This document shows positions 30,064 through 43,423 of a stretch of 64,000 bases of DNA, piece by piece. The translations under genes and the position numbers were made by a program. Each line of letters begins with the position of its first letter. Position 1 is the first letter of the stretch. The DNA lies in NCBI RefSeq assembly GCF_017875315.1, contig NZ_JAGGMM010000003.1:434001-498000 (forward strand), in the 5' to 3' direction. The notes under the pieces were generated by a model. It did no database searches. It saw only the letters and a program-made list of their open reading frames with translations, and had not been told where the DNA came from. Source of the DNA: Methanomicrobium sp. W14 (GTDB taxonomy: Archaea; Halobacteriota; Methanomicrobia; Methanomicrobiales; Methanomicrobiaceae).

Positions 30064-31323
30064 ATGACCGCAATAAATAAAACTGTCCTTCTGGTGTTTT
30101 GCATATCAGTCATTTACCTGGCGGGAGCTGCATACGCGGGAGCAAACTCCGGTACAGACGTTTTGCCGCTTGACAAAAACAATGACCAGAATATTTCTTC
30201 AGATGAACTTTCCGAAGGTATTCTCTCTTACCTTGCGGAAAAATACCTCAACAAAACCGACACTGAGCCTGACGAAAACCTCTCGGACGCCGCATACATA
30301 TACGCAAACTGGGGAGGAAAACCGAAGACGATAACGGACTCCACAGGCCGGACGATAACACTTTACCGGCCCTTAAAGAATGTGGTCGTATTAAACGGCG
30401 AGATGCTTGAAACTCTGCGGTCTCTCAACTTCAGTTCCGACAAGATTTCGGGAGTCGGGAAGTATACGCTTCAGGACACAAACTTCTTCCCGGAATACAG
30501 CAAAAAAACGAACGTAGGAAGCGTCTGGTCGCCTGACTACGAGAAGATAATAGAGTTGAAGCCCGACGCAGTCCTGACGTATGCGACGTTTATGCAGGAC
30601 ACCTGCGACGAGATACAGCAGAAAGTCCAGGGGATGGACCCTTCGATAAAATTCATCCGCTTTGACCTGTATTACCCGTCAACATACATTGAGGAGGCAG
30701 AAAAACTTTCAAAGGCAGTAGACAGGGAAGAAGAGGGAGAAAAACTTGTCTCATTCTATGGAAAAAACCTTGACCTGATTAAATCAAAAGTCGGCTCATT
30801 ACCTGAGGATAACAGGACGAAGGTATACTTTGAAAGCTGGGACGACTACAAGAGCGCCGCAAAAGGTTCCGGGTACAATGAAAAGATAAATCTTGCAGGA
30901 GGATTCAGCATATTCGAGAATGCAACGCCCGAATACCCTATAGTAAGCCCTGAAGAAATTCTTCTCAAAAACCCTGATGTCATCGTAAAACTCATCGGCT
31001 CAGGTCAGCTTAAATTCGGCGGGTACGAGGACAACGACACGGATTCTGCAAAAAGCGTATATGTCACCCTGACATCACGTGCCGGGTGGAGCAGCCTTGA
31101 TGCAGTTAAAGACAACAGGCTTCATATCTTAAGCACCGACATTTTCGGGGGACCGGAGTATATCATAGGAACGCTTTACCTTGCAAAATGGTTTTATCCT
31201 GGCGAATTCGAAGATGTCGACCCTGAAGAAGTCCACCAGGAGTATGTCTCCGACTTCCAGCACCTGGACTACAACGTGAGCAGTTCAGGTCTTTTCACAT
31301 ACCAAGAGACTGCAAAGGTGTAA
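30064..31323 (+). CDS. ABC importer substrate-binding protein (BtuF/FecB type) with an EF-hand-like motif
   Basis: 419 aa. Signal peptide (to about residue 26), then a calcium-loop motif DKNNDQNISSDEL at 37-49, reminiscent of dockerin/EF-hand segments, then the binding-protein fold: TDSTGRTITLYRPLKNVVVL, ELKPDAVLTYA, ILLKNPDVIVKL and a C-terminal LAKWFYPGEF. The family binds corrinoids, haem or ferric siderophores. It is followed 7 nt later by its permease. The chelatase at the end of the operon favours a tetrapyrrole or cobalt-linked cargo, which is inference. Confidence 0.9.
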   Translation: MTAINKTVLLVFCISVIYLAGAAYAGANSGTDVLPLDKNNDQNISSDELSEGILSYLAEKYLNKTDTEPDENLSDAAYIYANWGGKPKTITDSTGRTITLYRPLKNVVVLNGEMLETLRSLNFSSDKISGVGKYTLQDTNFFPEYSKKTNVGSVWSPDYEKIIELKPDAVLTYATFMQDTCDEIQQKVQGMDPSIKFIRFDLYYPSTYIEEAEKLSKAVDREEEGEKLVSFYGKNLDLIKSKVGSLPEDNRTKVYFESWDDYKSAAKGSGYNEKINLAGGFSIFENATPEYPIVSPEEILLKNPDVIVKLIGSGQLKFGGYEDNDTDSAKSVYVTLTSRAGWSSLDAVKDNRLHILSTDIFGGPEYIIGTLYLAKWFYPGEFEDVDPEEVHQEYVSDFQHLDYNVSSSGLFTYQETAKV

Positions 31324-31330
31324 ACCTGAT

Positions 31331-32416
31331 ATGCCAATAAACTCGCAGGAATTTCAGGAGAAGTGCAGAAGGCAGAATGCAAAAAAAAGGACATTTATTC
31401 TGGCAGCAGTCCTCCTGATAATACTTCTTGCGGGAGCGGGGATAGCGATAGGTTCTGCCGATATTTCCGTTCTTGATGCATACCGTGCAGTTTACAGCGG
31501 TCTTATCGACAGGATATCACAATTTTTATCCGGAAGCGAACCGTTATCAGCCGGTACAACCGGAATTGTGGTCTGGGACATAAGGCTTCACAGGGTTTTG
31601 TTTGCAGTCGCAGCAGGGTTCGGCCTTGCAATCGCGGGAACAGTGATGCAGGGGATTCTGAGAAACCCGCTTGCAAGCCCGTTCACGCTTGGAATAGCAT
31701 CGGCCGCATCATGCGGGGCATCGGTCGCGATAATCCTTTTCGGGGGAATCGCCGTTTTAAGCGGAAACCTTGCGGTAATACTCCTTGCATTCATATTCGC
31801 AATGCTCGCGTCGTTCGGGATATACGCGATGTCAAAGAAGAAGGGCCTCTCCTCATCCTCCATGATACTTGCAGGAATTGCTCTGATGTACCTTTTTTCA
31901 GCAATAACGTCACTTCTGCAATACTTCGGGTCCACCGACCAGGCCGCGGCTGTAGTATACTGGATGTTCGGCTCTCTTGACAGCACAACCTGGGCGAAAC
32001 TCGGGATTGTATGTCTAATCCTCGCCGTAATCACGCCTTACCTCGTATACAAGGCATGGGATCTGAACGCACTTGCAGAGGGTGATGAGATTGCAAAGAG
32101 CATAGGCGTCCCGGTAGAGAGGTCGATGACCACTTTCATGTTCATATCGTCAGTCATCACGGCCGTTATAATAGCATTCACCGGGACTATAGGGTTTATC
32201 GGGCTTGTCGCACCGCATATGACGAGAATGGTCACAGGAAGCGACCACAGGATCCTGATCCCGGCATCGGGGCTTGTGGGGGCCGCCGTCCTCCTCGCGG
32301 CAGACGACTTCAGCAGGATAATAATATATCCTTCAGTAATCCCCGTAGGAATCATGACCGCATTTTTAGGCGTCCCGTTCTTTTTGTACCTGTTCCTCAA
32401 AAGAGGTGACTACTAA
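31331..32416 (+). CDS. FecCD/BtuC-type ABC importer permease
   Basis: 361 aa, about ten membrane helices: an N-terminal cytoplasmic stretch, then RLHRVLFAVAAGFGLAIAGT, QGILRNPLASPFTLGIASA and GTIGFIGLVAPHMTRMV-like motifs that define the family (the last interacts with the ATPase). Forms the channel with the ATPase 2 nt downstream. Confidence 0.94.
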   Translation: MPINSQEFQEKCRRQNAKKRTFILAAVLLIILLAGAGIAIGSADISVLDAYRAVYSGLIDRISQFLSGSEPLSAGTTGIVVWDIRLHRVLFAVAAGFGLAIAGTVMQGILRNPLASPFTLGIASAASCGASVAIILFGGIAVLSGNLAVILLAFIFAMLASFGIYAMSKKKGLSSSSMILAGIALMYLFSAITSLLQYFGSTDQAAAVVYWMFGSLDSTTWAKLGIVCLILAVITPYLVYKAWDLNALAEGDEIAKSIGVPVERSMTTFMFISSVITAVIIAFTGTIGFIGLVAPHMTRMVTGSDHRILIPASGLVGAAVLLAADDFSRIIIYPSVIPVGIMTAFLGVPFFLYLFLKRGDY

Positions 32417-32418
32417 AA

Positions 32419-33213
32419 ATGCCTGAAGGCCCTGCGGTATCAGCTGAAGACCTCTCGTTTTCATACGGTGAAAAGCCGGTATTTTCAGGAATATCACTTG
32501 AAGCGGAACCCGGTGAAGTCCTCGGTCTTGTCGGCCCGAACGGCTCCGGAAAGACCACCCTGATAAAGTGCATGGACGGAATACTCAGCCCAAAGGGAAA
32601 GGTTGAGGTGTTCGGTAAGGACGTCGGAAGCCTTGACAGAACGGAAATTGCAAAAAGAATTGCATACGTCCCGCAGAGCCTTCCCGAAGGACTCTCCTCG
32701 TATGTCTACGAGACTGTCCTTATGGGTAGAAGGCCACACCTGAACTGGAATGTCCGCCCTGAAGACGAAGAGAAAGTGTTTTCGGCGATGAAGCTTCTCG
32801 GAGTCGAAGACTTTGCGTTCAGGAAGACAGGCGAGCTTTCGGGAGGCGAAAGGCAACGCGTAATGATTGCAAGGGCGGTTGTACAGGAGACACCTGTAAT
32901 TCTTATGGACGAGCCCACGAGCAGCCTTGACGTAAGACACCAGATGGAGGTCATGGAGACTATGAAAAGCCTTGCAAAAGAAAGGAGCACTGCCGTCATA
33001 GTATCCCTTCATGACTTAAACCTTGCCGCAGGCTACTGCGACAGGATTGCGATGCTAAAAGACGGGAAGGTATTCTGCTCGGGAAGACCGGAAGAGGTAC
33101 TCAAAAAAGAAACAATAAAAGACGTCTATGGGATTGAGACCTGCATAAAAAGGATTAACGACAGGGTCTGCATAATCCCGTTAAAACCTGCGGAGATTTT
33201 CCAGGAGGTATAA
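32419..33213 (+). CDS. BtuD/FecE-type ABC importer ATPase
   Basis: 264 aa. Walker A GPNGSGKTT, Q-loop YVPQSLPEG, signature LSGGERQRV, Walker B VILMDEPTSSLD, switch VSLHDLN. The C-terminal ~35 aa (VYGIETCIKRINDRVCIIPL) is typical of FecE-like proteins. AGGAGGT within its last codons serves the next gene, so the chelatase subunit is part of the same operon. Confidence 0.94.
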   Translation: MPEGPAVSAEDLSFSYGEKPVFSGISLEAEPGEVLGLVGPNGSGKTTLIKCMDGILSPKGKVEVFGKDVGSLDRTEIAKRIAYVPQSLPEGLSSYVYETVLMGRRPHLNWNVRPEDEEKVFSAMKLLGVEDFAFRKTGELSGGERQRVMIARAVVQETPVILMDEPTSSLDVRHQMEVMETMKSLAKERSTAVIVSLHDLNLAAGYCDRIAMLKDGKVFCSGRPEEVLKKETIKDVYGIETCIKRINDRVCIIPLKPAEIFQEV

Positions 33214-36200
33214 ATTACGGTTAAAATATCAGCGATATCATGGGGAAGTGAAATTTCAGTAATCAGGCATGCGGCAAAAAGAATAGGATTCGAGCTTTCG
33301 GACTGGAACGTCTACGACTTAAAGGAGAACAAAGACCTCGTTTCGGAATGCATAAAATCCTTCGCCGACTCGGATTTCGTCCTGATACACCCGTCGCACG
33401 ACCCCTACTGGGATGACATAACGGAAGGCTTTCCGGAAAATCTTCCGGTAGTCTCATACGGCTACTCCGACATGTTCTGGTCCGCATCAACAGTCCCCCT
33501 TTCGGTGGTATCAACCGTAAGCGCCTATTTTCTCTACGGGGGACTTGAAAACATCTACAATATGCTTGCTTTCTGTGCGACAAAAGTCCTGGGGCTTAAC
33601 TACCCCTACGCGGAGCCGTCCGAGACCAGGTGGGAGGGAATATACCATCCGGATATCCCGTTCGTCCTCGACTCGCCCGGTGAATACTTCGACTACAGGG
33701 GTGTCATATCCGGGTACAATATAGGGATAATGTTTCCGAGGACGCAGTGGATATGCGGAGACCTCAGGGCCGTCGACTCTTTTATCAGGAAGCTGGAGAG
33801 GTATGCAAACGTCGTCAGCGTATTCTGCTTTTCAAACGGAGACGATGAGCTTGGAGCACTTTCAAGTGCAGAGTGCATCAGAAAATACATGCCGGAAAAT
33901 CTTGACGCACTTGTCGACCTAAGGTCGTTTGTCCAGACAAAAGACCGTGAATCCCTGATAAAACTGCTTAAAGGAATGGACATCCCCGTATTTCATCCCC
34001 TGACGATGTACCACAGCTCGGCAGATGAATGGGAGAAGTCCGAGTCAGGGATGACAGGCTCCGAGACCGGATGGACTGTTGCACTTCCCGAGTTCCAGGG
34101 GTTCATTGAGATGATACCCTTTTCCTTTGCCGAAAAGGAGGCTTCATCCGGAGTCGAGACGAACCTTCACGCTGCACTTGAAGAGAGGATGGACAAAATT
34201 GCAAAGCGGATAATGAGATGGGTTCGCCTCTGCAAAAAGGACAGGTCAGAGAGAAAGATTGTCTTTATACTTCACAACAAACCGTGCGCATCGGTCGAAG
34301 GGACCGTTGGCTCGGGCGCAAACCTCGACACCCTTGAAAGCGTATCCGGTATCCTCAAAGCCATGAAGGCCACCGGATACGGCGTCAGCCCCCCGGAATC
34401 GGGCGAGACTTTAATCAACGAAATAATGTCGAAAAAGGCGGTGTCTGAATTCCGGTGGACCTCGGTTGAAGAGATCGTCAAAAAAGGCGGGGCGCTTGAG
34501 ATAATGAAGGCCGGGGAATACAGGAATTGGTTTTCCACGCTGCCGGAAAAAGTCAGAAACGATGTATCCAAATCCTGGGGAAATCCTCCGGGAGAGGAGA
34601 TTGACGGCGTCCCCCCGGCCATGCTCTATAAAGGAGACATTGTCATAACAGGGATATCTTTTGGAAACGCCCTTGTCTGCGTCCAGCCCAAAAGGGGGTG
34701 TGCAGGGTCAAGGTGCGACGGAAAGGCGTGCAGGATACTCCATGACCCGAAGATTCCCCCGACCCACCAGTACCTTGCAACCTACCACTACTTCGACGAA
34801 GTCTACGGGGCAGATGCGATAGTCCACGTCGGAACGCACGGAAACCTTGAGTTTCTGCCGGGAAAGGGCGTGGGACTTTCCGAATCCTGCTATCCAGACC
34901 TTGTTATAGGAGGAATGCCTCACCTCTACATCTACAACTCGGACAACCCGCCGGAGGGGACGATTGCAAAGAGGCGTTCATATGCGGTTACCGTCGACCA
35001 TATGCAGACCGTTATGGCGACTTCGGAGCTTTACGGGAATTTAAAGGAGCTTGAAGAGCAGATATCCGAGTACAAAAGAGCGAAGGACTCCGACAGGGCA
35101 CGTGCACATGCACTGACGCATACGATAGAAGACCTCCTTGAAGAGACGGGAATATCCTACTCGATAAACCTGAAGGGCCTGAAGTACATGGAGGCTTCCT
35201 TCGACGAGATAATCGACGCCGCCCACAAGGTGGTAACCGAGACCTACGAGACCAAAATCCCGAAAGGGATGCATATCTTTGGCAGGCTTCCCGAAGGCGA
35301 AGACAGGGCAGACCTGATATACTCCGTTTTAAACTACAACGAAGGCCCGAAAGAGTTTGCAGCCGAAGCCTTCGGGGGACCCGCGGGCGATGACATAGAA
35401 CGCCTGAGGGCCGATGAAGAACTCTCAAAAAAAGTCATTCTTGACGTAATGGACGGTCTTGACCCATACCCTGCGATAAAGGATGCGACCGGAAAAGACC
35501 CTTTGAAAAACCCCTCTCTCAAAGAGAAGGCCGACCGCTTCATAGCTGACGCCGGTTCGGTCAACGAAAGAATAGAAAATTCTGATGAAATAGGCTCCCT
35601 TCTCCACGGGCTGAACGGTAAATACATAGAGCCCGGGCCGTCCGGCCTTATAACAAGGGGAAACCCTGAAATAATGCCGACAGGAAGAAACCTCTACTCG
35701 CTTGACCCGAACAAGGTCCCGACAAAGGCCGCCTGGAGAATAGGAAACAGGCTTGCTGACGAGGTCCTGAACAAATACACGACGGAAAACGGCGAATACC
35801 CTGAAAACATCGCCTTCTACTGGGTCTCGACCGACATCATGTGGGGAGACGGGGAGGTATTCTCGCAGATGATGAAGTTAATCGGCGTCGAACCTGTGTG
35901 GAAGGGAGGAAAAGTGAAGTCCTTTAAAATAATCCCCGCTGAAGAGCTCAAAAGACCGAGAATCGATATAACGGTAAAAATCGGCGGGATTATGAGGGAC
36001 AGCTTCTACAGCTGCGTCGAACTTTTAGACGACGCGGTAAAAGCGGTCTCTGAACTGGACGAACCTCCCGGGACAAACTTCGTAAGAAAGCATACTCTTG
36101 AATCCGGGTGCAGCGACAGGATATTCGGTAACAGCCCCGGAACTTACGGCAACGGAGTAAACCTCGCCGTCTACTCGTCAGCATGGAAGGACGAGGCCGA

Positions 36201-36918
36201 TCTCGCCGACGTATTTCTCGAATGGAACAGCTATGCATACGGGAGGGACAACTTCGGGGAAAAGTCAAAGGAGAACATGACAAAACAGCTCAGGTCCGTA
36301 AGCCTGACGTTCAATGTCGCGATGACCGACGAATACGACCTTCTCGGTTGCTGCTGCTACTTCGGCGCCCACGGGGGGCTTACAGCCGCTGCAAGAACGG
36401 TCTCGGAAAAAGATATTCCCGTATACTACGGGGATACCAGGAGCAGGGACAAAGTAGGAATCAGGACGATTGCAGACGAAATCAGGCGTGTCGTGAGGAC
36501 GAAACTCTTAAACCCCAAATGGATAGACGGGATGAAAAAGCACGGCTACAAAGGGGCAGAAGACATCTCGAAGAGGGTAACTCACGTCTACGGCTGGGAG
36601 GCTACGACTGGAGAGGTAGACGACTCCATCTTTGATGATATTGCGAAAACTTTCGTTTTAGACGAGGAGAACAGGAAATTTTTCTCCGAAAAGAACCCGT
36701 GGGCTCTTGAGGAGATCGGAAGACGGCTTCTTGAGGCCGAAGCAAGAGACTTGTGGGACGCCGACCCTGATGTGCTCGACAGGCTCAAAGAGGCATACAT
36801 GGACATAGAAGGCGACATGGAGGACAGAAGAGGAGACGCGGAAGGTGAAATCCAGGGAGGAGCGGTCGACGTTTATACGCTAAAAGAGATAGCTGAACAG
36901 AAACACAAAAGGCAGTAA
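33214..36918 (+). CDS. cobN: CobN/BchH-like large chelatase subunit, apparently without a canonical start codon
   Basis: About 1,234 aa. Family signatures: GTHGNLEFLPGKGVGLSESC (about residue 538), NPPEGTIAKRRSYAVTVDHM, IFGNSPGTYGNGVN and WGDGEVF. It is the large subunit that binds the tetrapyrrole in ATP-driven chelatases (cobalt into hydrogenobyrinate, or Mg in BchH). The reading frame stays open with family-like sequence (VKISAISWGSEISVIRHAAK) from the preceding stop at 33211-33213, but the first ATG is only at 33472. With AGGAGGT at 33203-33209, the likely start is ATT at 33214 or ACG at 33217. GTG and TTG are absent there. Last gene of the importer operon. Confidence 0.88.
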   Translation: MTVKISAISWGSEISVIRHAAKRIGFELSDWNVYDLKENKDLVSECIKSFADSDFVLIHPSHDPYWDDITEGFPENLPVVSYGYSDMFWSASTVPLSVVSTVSAYFLYGGLENIYNMLAFCATKVLGLNYPYAEPSETRWEGIYHPDIPFVLDSPGEYFDYRGVISGYNIGIMFPRTQWICGDLRAVDSFIRKLERYANVVSVFCFSNGDDELGALSSAECIRKYMPENLDALVDLRSFVQTKDRESLIKLLKGMDIPVFHPLTMYHSSADEWEKSESGMTGSETGWTVALPEFQGFIEMIPFSFAEKEASSGVETNLHAALEERMDKIAKRIMRWVRLCKKDRSERKIVFILHNKPCASVEGTVGSGANLDTLESVSGILKAMKATGYGVSPPESGETLINEIMSKKAVSEFRWTSVEEIVKKGGALEIMKAGEYRNWFSTLPEKVRNDVSKSWGNPPGEEIDGVPPAMLYKGDIVITGISFGNALVCVQPKRGCAGSRCDGKACRILHDPKIPPTHQYLATYHYFDEVYGADAIVHVGTHGNLEFLPGKGVGLSESCYPDLVIGGMPHLYIYNSDNPPEGTIAKRRSYAVTVDHMQTVMATSELYGNLKELEEQISEYKRAKDSDRARAHALTHTIEDLLEETGISYSINLKGLKYMEASFDEIIDAAHKVVTETYETKIPKGMHIFGRLPEGEDRADLIYSVLNYNEGPKEFAAEAFGGPAGDDIERLRADEELSKKVILDVMDGLDPYPAIKDATGKDPLKNPSLKEKADRFIADAGSVNERIENSDEIGSLLHGLNGKYIEPGPSGLITRGNPEIMPTGRNLYSLDPNKVPTKAAWRIGNRLADEVLNKYTTENGEYPENIAFYWVSTDIMWGDGEVFSQMMKLIGVEPVWKGGKVKSFKIIPAEELKRPRIDITVKIGGIMRDSFYSCVELLDDAVKAVSELDEPPGTNFVRKHTLESGCSDRIFGNSPGTYGNGVNLAVYSSAWKDEADLADVFLEWNSYAYGRDNFGEKSKENMTKQLRSVSLTFNVAMTDEYDLLGCCCYFGAHGGLTAAARTVSEKDIPVYYGDTRSRDKVGIRTIADEIRRVVRTKLLNPKWIDGMKKHGYKGAEDISKRVTHVYGWEATTGEVDDSIFDDIAKTFVLDEENRKFFSEKNPWALEEIGRRLLEAEARDLWDADPDVLDRLKEAYMDIEGDMEDRRGDAEGEIQGGAVDVYTLKEIAEQKHKRQ

Positions 36919-37056: not shown

Positions 37057-39120
37057 ATGCAGTCGTCAGCAAGAAGAAGCATCCTGCCGTTTACGGCCAT
37101 AATCGGGCAGGAGACAATGAAAAAGGCCCTTGTTTTAAACGCAGTCAACCCGAAAATAGGCGGGGTCCTGATAAGAGGAGACAAAGGAACGGCCAAGTCC
37201 ACGGCAGTACGTGCACTTGCAGAGGTGCTGCCTGAAATAACCGTCTCCGCGGGCTGCCCGTACAGCTGCAATCCTGAAAACGAAAAGGAGATGTGCGATT
37301 TCTGCCGCTCAAAGAAGGAAAAACCGAAGCCGTTCAAAAGAAAGGTGAGGGTTGCAGAGCTCCCCCTCGGTGCGACCGAAGACCGTGTTTTAGGGACTAT
37401 AGACATCGAAAAGGCAATTAAGGAGGGCGAGAAGAGAATCGAGCCGGGGATACTTGCGGATGCAAACAGGGGAATTCTCTACGTCGACGAGATAAACCTC
37501 CTTGACGACCACATTGCAGACATACTCCTTGACGCGGCCGCGATGGGAGTAAACGTCGTGGAAAGAGAGGGAATATCACTGTCGCATCCGTCATCCTTCA
37601 TCCTTATAGGGACTATGAATCCGGAAGAAGGCGAGCTCCGCCCGCAGCTTCTGGACAGGTTCGGCCTGCAGGTCGCGGTAGAAGGTATAGAAGACATTGA
37701 ATCAAGGCTTAAAATAGCAAGAACCGCAGAAAGCTTTGAAAAAGACCCGGAGGAGTTTGCCGGAGAATATGAAGTGAAGCAGGACGAACTCAGGGAGAGA
37801 ATTAAAGATGCAGTGGAGATACTTCCCTTTGTTGCCATCTCGGACGGACAGATAAGAAAAATAGCAGAAGTCTGCCTGAACTGCGGCATCACGACCCACA
37901 GGGCCGAAATTGCCGTTATGAGGACAGCAAAGGCGATAGCGGCACTCGACAAAAGAGGAGAAGTCAGCGACTCCGATATAAAAGAGGCCATGCAGCTTGC
38001 ACTTCCGCACAGGATGAGAAAAAAACCCTTTGAGGAGCCGAAGCTTGACAACGACATGATAAACGAAGTCATGGACGAAAAAAACGAGAGTGAAAAGGAG
38101 AAGGAGGAACAGGATAAAAAAAGCGAAAAACCTTCCGAAACCCCAAAAAACACCGGGGAAAATGAAATCGGAGAAGACGAACCGAAAGATAAACAAAAAT
38201 CCCCAAAAGGAGGAAACGGTTCACCTTCAGGAAATGACGAAGGCGATGCACCTGACGTAACCTATGCAATAGGAAGACCTGTGGATACCTCGAAGATCTC
38301 CTCATCCGTAAAAAAAGATAAAATTCGGCGAAAAAACGTATCGGGCAGGAGAACGGAGTCTGAAACGACATCAAAAAGAGGTTCGTACAGGGGGTTTCGG
38401 ATATCAGGTGAACCCTCAGACATCGCGTTTGACGCAACGATACGTGCCGCCGCACCTTTCCAGAAGGAAAGAGAAAAGAAAAACTTTGCAATATCAATAG
38501 CTGAGTCAGATTTAAGAGAGAAAAAAAGGGCAGGCAAAACGTCCGCCGCGTGCATGTTCGTAGTTGATGCAAGCGGTTCAATGGGTGCAAAAAAAAGGAT
38601 GGAAAGCACAAAAGGCGCTATTCTTTCAATGCTTAACGATTCATACAAAAAAAGGGACAAAATCGGGCTTGTAGCGTTCAGGGGTGACTCCGCGGAGGTA
38701 ATACTTCCATTGTGCTCAAGCGTTGACCTTGCAAAGAAATGCCTTGAAGAACTCCCGACCGGCGGAAGGACGCCCCTTTATGCAGGGCTTTCAAAAGGAA
38801 TGGATGTATTAATGCAGGAAAAGCGGAAAAACGGCGATATCGTTCCTCTTCTCGTATGCATATCCGACGGGAGGTCAAACAAATCAGTCTCTGGAGACAT
38901 AAAAAAAGAGCTTATGGCAGTATCGGAGGAGATATTCAGAAACGACATTCATACTGTCCTGATTGACACCGAAACTTCTGGAAGTGGTTTTCTTAAAATG
39001 CAGCTTGGGTACTGCAAAATGGTTGCCGAACACTCGAAGGGGAGCTACTATTCACTTGACGATCTGGGATTTCAGGAGGTCTCAGGGATAGCTTCAGCCG
39101 AAATCAGCCGTTTTACATGA
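37057..39120 (+). CDS. Fused ChlI-ChlD-type chelatase AAA+/VWA subunit
   Basis: 687 aa. Residues 10-340 are an AAA+ ATPase: Walker [10 protein letters not shown] (41-49), a cysteine cluster C67/C71/C80/C83, Walker [13 protein letters not shown] and [21 protein letters not shown] charged K/E/P/S linker (about 340-470) follows, then a VWA domain with MIDAS residues in VVDASGSMG (about 500) and [10 protein letters not shown]. This single chain corresponds to BchI plus BchD (or CobS/CobT) and would drive the CobN subunit encoded just upstream. Whether the pair inserts Co, Mg or another metal is not decided by sequence. Confidence 0.93.
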
Positions 39121-41504: not shown

Positions 41505-42296
41505 TTACCGTCCGGCCTTTACCGGAATCCTTTCAAGCGGGACTATATACAAAAAGTCGTCCGAACGCTTTACGTTTGCCTTTACCCCGTATACTTTTTC
41601 AATATTTTCAGAATTTATGACGCTTTCGGGGTCGCCTGCCGCAACAATCCTGCCCCTCTTCATCATGACAACGACGTCCGAATATTTTGCAGCCATATTC
41701 AGGTCATGTATAGCGATAATCGCCGTAAGCCTCTTCTTTTTGACAAGAGAGCGGATGACTTCCATTACGTCTATCTGGTGCCACAGGTCAAGATTGCTCG
41801 TGGGTTCGTCCAGGAGAATAAGACCTGTGTTCTGGACGAGTGCACGGGCGATAAGGACCTTCTGCTGCTGGCCTCCGGAAAGTTCCGTAAAAGACGACAT
41901 TGCAAGGTTTTCAATTCCAAGAAGCCTTAAAACACTCCATACCTCATCTTCGTCAGACACATCCTCACGCCACCCGAGATAGGGCCTTCTCCCCATAAGG
42001 ACTACGTCAAAAACACTGTTCGGAAAAGACCTTATCGAGTTCTGGGGGACGTAAGCTATGGTCTTTGCAATGTCCATCCTCCCCATTTTAAGAAGGTCCT
42101 GGCGGTCGACAAGCACCTTTCCCGCCTGCGGTTCAAGAATCCTGTCGATGCATTTGAGAAACGTCGATTTTCCCGAGCCGTTGGGACCAAGAAGGCTTAC
42201 GACCCTTCCGTCGGTCACGTTAAGAGAAATTCCGTTGAGAATATCTTCGCTGTCATAACTGAAGTGAAGGTTTTTGACAGAGAGTTTTATTATCAT
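41505..42296 (-). CDS. BtuD/FecE-type ABC importer ATPase
   Basis: 263 aa with Walker A GPNGSGKST, YVPQNSIRS, signature LSGGQQQKV, Walker B LILLDEPTSNLD and switch AIHDLN. It overlaps the permease stop by ATGA. This is the second importer of this type in the window. No binding protein adjoins it directly, but two lipoprotein binding proteins lie a few kb upstream on the same strand. Confidence 0.94.
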   Translation of the reverse strand: MIIKLSVKNLHFSYDSEDILNGISLNVTDGRVVSLLGPNGSGKSTFLKCIDRILEPQAGKVLVDRQDLLKMGRMDIAKTIAYVPQNSIRSFPNSVFDVVLMGRRPYLGWREDVSDEDEVWSVLRLLGIENLAMSSFTELSGGQQQKVLIARALVQNTGLILLDEPTSNLDLWHQIDVMEVIRSLVKKKRLTAIIAIHDLNMAAKYSDVVVMMKRGRIVAAGDPESVINSENIEKVYGVKANVKRSDDFLYIVPLERIPVKAGR

Positions 42297-43423
42297 GTCC
42301 AGTACTCCTTTTTTCTTCCGCGGAGGATTAGATACAGGAAGAACGGAACTCCGATTATCGACATCGTAACACCTGTCGGAATTATTATCGGCGATAACAG
42401 GTGCACAGAGACTGCATCCGCTATGAGAAGTATCAGCGCCCCCAGACCTCCTGCAGCGGGGATCATGTACCTGTGGTCAGAGCCAAGGATCATACGCCCC
42501 ATGTGAGGCGCTACAAGGCCTATAAATCCCAGGACCCCGATAAACGCCACAATAACCGCGACATAAAGGCTTGAGACCACCATGATGTAAATGCGTGTAA
42601 AACCTGCATCAACACCCATACTTTTTGCACTTTCGTCTCCTGCCGTCATAAGGTTCAGGTCCCAGGCTTTCATGTACAGGAGAGGCAGGCAAATTATGGT
42701 TACGCCGGCAAGAATACCTATACTGTTCCAGTTTAAGTCGGACAGTCCTCCCATTCCCCACATGTTCATGACCTCCTGCTGCTCTTCGCTTGCTACAAAG
42801 CTGAAAAGCTGGTTCAATGCCTGAAATAAATAATTTACTGCAATTCCTGCGAGGACAAGCATCTCGGAAGTAGCCCCCTTAAGTCCCGAAAGGCAGATTA
42901 TGACCGCAGAACACACGAGTGCACATACAAAAGCGTTACCTATGAGAAAATAAGGCCCGCCAAGAAACGTTATCCCAAATACGGCTGCAACCGACACCCC
43001 GAACTGTGCACCTGAGGATATTCCGAGTGTAAACGGACTTGCAAGAGGGTTTTTGAGAACGGCCTGCATTACGCAGCCGCATATGCCGAGACCGAGACCT
43101 ACAATAATGTCACCTGCAACCCGCGGAAGGCGTATTTCCCAGACAGTATTTTCCATGGCTTTTGTGACCTCACAAAAGCCCGGCACAACCCTGTCTATTA
43201 TTATGGAATAGACTTCAGTCACCGTTATCGGCATCGGGCCTATCGTTATGATAAAACCCGAGGCAATGACTATAATCAGCACCACAGCGAGAAGAAAGAG
43301 AAGCTTCTTCCATACCGACAACGAGTGTTCTTTTTCTACTTCACTTACCTTTCCGGTCCTGGTCCGTCCTGTAGCAGGAACCTTTCTCGGGACAGGACTA
43401 CGCCTCATCCTGTATTCCCTCAC
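42293..43423 (-). CDS. FecCD/BtuC-type ABC importer permease
   Basis: 376 aa. A long basic N-terminal stretch (about 35 aa) is followed by ten or so membrane helices with IRLPRVAGDIIVGLGLGICG, QAVLKNPLASPFTLGISSG and GVLGFIGLVAPHMGRMI. The first codon is GTG, overlapping the slipin stop as GTGA; ATG at 43408 is an alternative start. The coupling with a slipin gene is unusual for this family. Confidence 0.92.
   Translation of the reverse strand: MREYRMRRSPVPRKVPATGRTRTGKVSEVEKEHSLSVWKKLLFLLAVVLIIVIASGFIITIGPMPITVTEVYSIIIDRVVPGFCEVTKAMENTVWEIRLPRVAGDIIVGLGLGICGCVMQAVLKNPLASPFTLGISSGAQFGVSVAAVFGITFLGGPYFLIGNAFVCALVCSAVIICLSGLKGATSEMLVLAGIAVNYLFQALNQLFSFVASEEQQEVMNMWGMGGLSDLNWNSIGILAGVTIICLPLLYMKAWDLNLMTAGDESAKSMGVDAGFTRIYIMVVSSLYVAVIVAFIGVLGFIGLVAPHMGRMILGSDHRYMIPAAGGLGALILLIADAVSVHLLSPIIIPTGVTMSIIGVPFFLYLILRGRKKEYWT

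Follow-up and report, generated by a model that had tools for sequence, protein, structure and literature searches.

A probable ACG start codon in the cobN-type chelatase gene of a methanogenic archaeon

The gene for a CobN-type chelatase large subunit, located in the 64,000-nt window analysed here (positions 434001 to 498000 of contig C3; host genome G000, 2.54 Mb in six contigs), is best explained as a working gene whose start codon was mutated from ATG to ACG at position 33217 and is used by means of a strong Shine-Dalgarno sequence, with the stop codon of the preceding gene very likely helping. Judged from sequence comparison, this reading is given a probability of about 0.68; the ACG itself is probably a real and used start. 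We infer that the full-length Shine-Dalgarno sequence, at normal spacing, would put the initiator Met-tRNA on the ACG, and that initiation would very likely be aided by ribosomes just released from the ABC ATPase gene, whose end lies 3 nt upstream. The protein would then begin with methionine and read Met-Val-Lys-Ile-Ser as in the nearest relative, giving the predicted N-terminal peptide (M)VKISAISWGSEISVIR.

The cobN start region and its orthologs

The ABC ATPase gene (32419 to 33213) ends with GTA TAA and is followed in the same frame by ATT, ACG and, at 33220, GTT (Table 1). Counting ATT as codon 1 and ACG as codon 2, the first canonical start is the ATG at codon 87 (33472). A listing of canonical and near-cognate codons contains no in-frame ATG, GTG or TTG from 33214 to this ATG, and the AGGAGGT motif lies 4 nt from the ATT and 7 nt from the ACG; on both points, as well as on the position of the motif, our results agree with the initial annotation. 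A Shine-Dalgarno sequence is practically absent at the ATG at 33472 (duplex of -1.7), and a start there would cost 85 residues counted from the ACG, close to the 86 conserved residues estimated before. The identity with the protein of the related genome G004 is 69 of 85 aligned residues for codons 3 to 87 and 924 of 1145 from codon 88 to the end. The earlier proposal of a non-canonical cobN start is supported by the codon listing, the orthologous column and the Shine-Dalgarno sequence.

The 3' end of the 16S rRNA of this genome is GGATCACCTCCTAA, and AGGAGGT can pair with it over its full length. A duplex as stable as that of cobN, or more stable, was calculated for 4 of the 55 other genes of the window, for which the median is -6.3 kcal/mol. 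Measured from the GGAGG core, the spacing is 8 nt for the ACG and 5 nt for the ATT; among 170 genes with a strong Shine-Dalgarno sequence on contig C3, 26 are found at 8 nt and five at 5 nt. An RNA structure hiding the start was not found at cobN (z of 0.52).

All five nearest orthologs (L003 to L007 from G004, G013, G007, G016 and G019; 49 to 82% identity over the first 260 residues) have ATG in the column of the ACG. The start reads ATG GTT AAA ATA TCA in G004 and ACG GTT AAA ATA TCA in G000. The initial annotation had named 33214 and 33217 as possible columns for the ATG of the relatives, which applies to the latter and not to the former; the comparison places the ancestral start at 33217, not at 33214. 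In 13 further relatives, namely those with a match reaching the N-terminus in an alignment read by eye, ATG or GTG is located one codon downstream (nine cases) or ATG a few codons upstream (four cases). The ACG at the cobN start was seen in G000 only and is not conserved between species. The Shine-Dalgarno duplexes of the five nearest relatives (-6.6, -6.6, -10.4, -3.3 and -6.6) are all weaker than that of G000, which, as a single comparison, fits compensation at least in part. The initial annotation had suggested that a weak start could keep the chelatase low relative to its importer; this may be so, but the strong Shine-Dalgarno sequence points at least partly to compensation instead.

Table 1. 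Positions of the features discussed. Plain numbers refer to the window, prefixed numbers to the genome and contig given.
Feature	Position	Strand	Remarks
Importer genes: substrate-binding protein, FecCD permease, ABC ATPase	30064..33213	+	Pfam, NCBIfam; upstream of cobN
Shine-Dalgarno sequence AGGAGGT	33203..33209	+	within 3' end of ABC ATPase gene; full complement of 16S 3' end; -11.9 kcal/mol
TAA stop of ABC ATPase gene	33211..33213	+	3 nt upstream of ACG
ATT, rival start codon	33214..33216	+	5 nt from GGAGG core; no start in this column among five nearest orthologs
ACG, most likely cobN start codon	33217..33219	+	ATG column of five nearest orthologs; 8 nt spacing
CobN-type chelatase large subunit	33217..36918	+	1,233 codons plus stop; PF02514, 1205.6 bits; NF004646, 1526.8 bits
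First in-frame ATG of cobN, unlikely start	33472..33474	+	without Shine-Dalgarno sequence; inside conserved sequence
ChlI/ChlD-type chelatase ATPase subunit	37057..39120	+	TIGR02442, 780.5 bits, cut-off 779.45; downstream of cobN
YcaO-family gene	G000:C3 325534-326814	-	CTG; L148, L152, L153, L160
MMPL-family gene	G000:C3 214513-216771	-	ATA; L182, L183, L171, L184
Response regulator gene	G000:C3 236372-237196	+	ATT candidate behind Shine-Dalgarno sequence; L169
Aconitase-family gene	G000:C3 155571-156812		start ATT, ATA or ACG; ATG in G004
Protein without Pfam family	G000:C3 320737-322029		ATT
Sulfite/nitrite-reductase-like gene	G004:C1 13413-14111	-	AAGGAGG GATTAAAA ATT; L214

Condition of the cobN gene and alternatives to an ACG start

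The match to NF004646 exceeds the curated cut-off of 1468 bits and extends over residues 4 to 1232, i.e. the full length. By this profile match, CobN is a putative cobaltochelatase large subunit, for which the insertion of cobalt is a prediction only. It is the sole PF02514 protein of the genome. The downstream ChlI/ChlD-type gene has an alternative ATG 20 codons in with a better Shine-Dalgarno sequence. A second importer-like ATPase/permease pair is encoded elsewhere in the window (41505 to 43423, minus strand) and is approximately 42 to 44% identical to the pair linked to cobN in G004.

No internal stop was found in the 1,234 codons of the cobN frame. At 250 columns that are invariant in 16 other proteins, CobN has no deviation (0 to 24 for the others in the same test). 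Lineage-specific amino-acid changes number five in G000 and seven in G004 for codons 3 to 87, compared to 105 and 40, respectively, outside the N-terminus; the latter difference is due to the shape of the tree. G000 branches outside G004, G007 and G013 in the trees of CobN, the permease, the ABC ATPase, the binding protein and the product of a small upstream gene. The length of the G000 branch is 0.152 for CobN, 0.157 for the permease, 0.142 for the ABC ATPase, 0.302 for the binding protein and 0.198 for ChlID, the tree of the latter being weak, with a probable paralog (46% identity) as the G007 entry. Ratios of dN to dS were left unused, since dS approaches saturation among these genomes. By branch length, CobN evolves no faster than its operon neighbours, and the signs of a pseudogene that were looked for, internal lesions and relaxed evolution, were not found. 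Among possible first substitution lesions of cobN, 499 create a stop and seven lose the start, so that loss of the start alone would be an outcome of decay in about 1.4% of cases.

Silencing of cobN by a recent start-codon mutation, the alternative raised in the initial annotation, is disfavoured by the intact frame, the retention of all invariant columns, the absence of acceleration, the retained strong Shine-Dalgarno sequence and the rarity of start loss as the only lesion, and we regard it as very unlikely, even though ACG is generally a poor start. A CbiX-family protein, of which the genome encodes one, could provide cobalt insertion; this step may therefore have a second route and CobN may be dispensable. 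The presence of CbiX, the occurrence of the cobN ACG in one genome only and the 105 versus 40 changes were counted as points against a working gene with an ACG start, as were the base-pairing demands of E. coli and the role of aIF1 given below. Translation could also begin at the preceding codon, ATT, which is the start codon of E. coli infC. The ACG codon would then be Thr2, and Watson-Crick pairing would be retained at the first two codon positions, as initiation is reported to demand in E. coli in vitro (PMC10158994). ATT is also the candidate start of several other genes in these genomes. Since the orthologous ATG falls in the column of the ACG, and the core spacing of 5 nt compares with a usual 7 to 10 nt, this reading is unlikely, but is the one among the alternatives to which we give the most weight.

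An error of sequencing or assembly, or a mutation in culture, at 33218 would mean that the true start is ATG. The two codons differ by one base and the species is represented by one genome; nevertheless, this appears quite unlikely. If errors were so common that several start codons were affected, many internal stops should be present too: on contig C3 there are 18.7 targets for a nonsense change to each target for start loss, so that five random start losses would bring about 93 nonsense changes. In-frame stops were seen in about five genes, which is a minimum, the method being a partial one. Cases shared by independent genomes (see below) cannot be errors, which bears on the other genes and not on 33218 itself. 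A shorter CobN beginning at 33472, or readthrough of the TAA yielding an ABC-CobN fusion, is highly improbable. The former would use the first canonical start, which lacks a Shine-Dalgarno sequence and lies within conserved sequence; the latter is permitted by the common frame of the two genes, but stop codons precede the ATG in the cobN frame of G004, and the fusion frame is thus not conserved.

Proposed initiation at the ACG and comparison with known systems

Three possible causes of near-cognate initiation were considered and rejected. Editing of ACG to AUG in the RNA is not a general cause, since the ATT and ATA starts cannot yield AUG by a C-to-U change. For a dedicated initiator tRNA, nothing unusual was detected among 46 tRNA matches, 44 of which were called by ARAGORN (29 of 30 and 15 of 16 loci, two remaining uncalled); two tRNAs carry CAT (L100 and L116), and the one with CGT (L102) was called as tRNA-Thr. 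A lax aIF1 is not indicated either: in a comparison of 14 out of 16 sequences (without G029 and G031), the factor has an ordinary core that resembles those of relatives both within the family and beyond it. This factor is reported to promote the rejection of non-canonical starts (PMC6237735), which speaks against initiation at the ACG. Reinitiation behind a stop codon has been reported to depend strongly on distance in Haloferax volcanii; for a gene pair with a native distance of +1, it dropped by 60% when the distance was 13 nt and was lost at 22 nt (PMC10666635). By this dependence, the distance of +3 at cobN falls in the range of efficient reinitiation. Such a distance may help the use of the ACG.

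The gene infC, which encodes bacterial IF3, starts with AUU and is self-regulated, and near-cognate starts as such are known. Like cobN, it has a near-cognate codon behind a strong Shine-Dalgarno sequence with no canonical start nearby; infC is self-regulated, whereas no feedback is known for CobN, a metabolic enzyme of an archaeon, and its ACG has a mismatch at the second position. All 64 codons were reportedly covered in E. coli by Hecht et al. in 2017. Starts outside ATG, GTG and TTG were seen by Ribo-seq in another methanogen, Methanosarcina mazei, but these belong to small ORFs, 5% of which begin with CTG, and neither an ACG start nor a large conserved enzyme is mentioned in the sections consulted (PMC11456600). 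The termination-reinitiation pairs of H. volcanii resemble cobN in that the upstream stop is a few nt from the downstream start; they differ in their canonical starts, with ATT as a rare possibility and ACG absent from the main text (PMC10666635). Archaeal starts are described as AUG, GUG and UUG (PMC7531240). A published archaeal ACG start was not found in the literature searched, some of it accessible in part, which does not prove absence. If used, the ACG of cobN would mean that a large conserved enzyme of an archaeon is naturally initiated at a codon mismatched in its second position. It would offer a natural substrate for testing the mismatch tolerance of aIF1 and aIF2, and a test of how far a strong Shine-Dalgarno sequence and a close upstream stop compensate.

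Candidate near-cognate starts in other genes

A script was used to flag genes in which coding sequence extends beyond the 5' side of the first canonical start, and candidates were accepted by the author's judgement. Of the 415 genes of contig C3, it flagged 15, and six of these, including cobN, were kept, with families assigned by Pfam. The accepted candidates per genes called were 6/415 in G000, 1/285 in G007, 2/253 in G004, 0/128 in G016, 1/134 in G006 and 1/88 in G011, which amounts to 11/1303 for the host family. Outside this family, 1/159 (ATC) was obtained for G030 and 0/140 for G036. A stretch of E. coli K-12, picked as a positive control for containing infC, gave 1/162, namely infC with ATT; pcnB, which is part of this sample and also starts with ATT, was not flagged. 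The script would detect an estimated 38 to 43% of ATG losses in archaeal samples (other than G006 and G011) and 29% in E. coli. Before G006 and G011 were added, the genus (8/668) compared to G007, G016, G030 and G036 (2/712) gave a p of about 0.057. An excess in the family is not established, and 11/1303 versus 1/299 in two other families does not look decisive.

The MMPL-family gene of G007 and G013 is the clearest candidate for a shared ACG start: it reads GGAGG TTTTTT ACG in both genomes, with ATG in the same column in G011 and G016. In G000, the ATA is one residue off this column, and G006 has an ATG nearby. The YcaO-family gene has CTG in G000 and G006, which represent two genera, and in the same column ATG in G004 and GTG in G011 and G016. 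Since the MMPL ACG and the YcaO CTG are each shared by two genomes, they are not independent sequencing errors. Such starts in other genes count in favour of the use of the ACG in cobN. The response regulator gene has an ATT candidate in G004 too, where it lies behind AAAGGAGGGGTCGTA; G007 and G013 have ATG, and the alignment is less clear for G011 and G016. The sulfite-reductase-like gene has ATT in G004, a single-contig genome, and ATG in the same column in G003, G011 and G016. For the protein without Pfam family, no ortholog was found among the matches listed.

Taken together, we lean slightly towards the view that the host and its family regularly start about 1 to 2% of their genes (more in G000) at ACG, ATT, ATA or CTG behind a Shine-Dalgarno sequence, conserved enzymes included, that annotation restricted to ATG, GTG and TTG truncates or misplaces these genes, and that the ACG of cobN is one such case. 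If this is true, the database N-termini of some few per cent of the genes of such genomes may be wrong.

Of the flagged genes on contig C3 that were rejected by judgement, those at 298229, 296980, 588608, 267886 and 199946 have an in-frame stop or a stop adjoining the start, and those at 132694, 463425, 150256 and 601139 either possess a canonical ATG preceded by a Shine-Dalgarno sequence or are weakly supported. In G011 (C1 164364-165956, plus strand), 96 coding codons precede the first canonical start of a gene whose likely start candidate is an ACG located behind GGTGGTGAT. The gene found in G030 (C1 52026-53129, plus strand) is transposase-like by eye, with the ATC behind GGAG as the sole start candidate. 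A conserved gene of G000 (C3 267886-268563, plus strand) is preceded by ATG ACG GAC GAC TAA, where the start is open in G007 and G013. Two adjoining genes at C3 296980-298579 (minus strand), one encoding a corrinoid-protein-like product with a TGA inside the domain and the other containing a TAA, have intact copies in close relatives, which suggests that a methyltransferase cluster is decaying locally.
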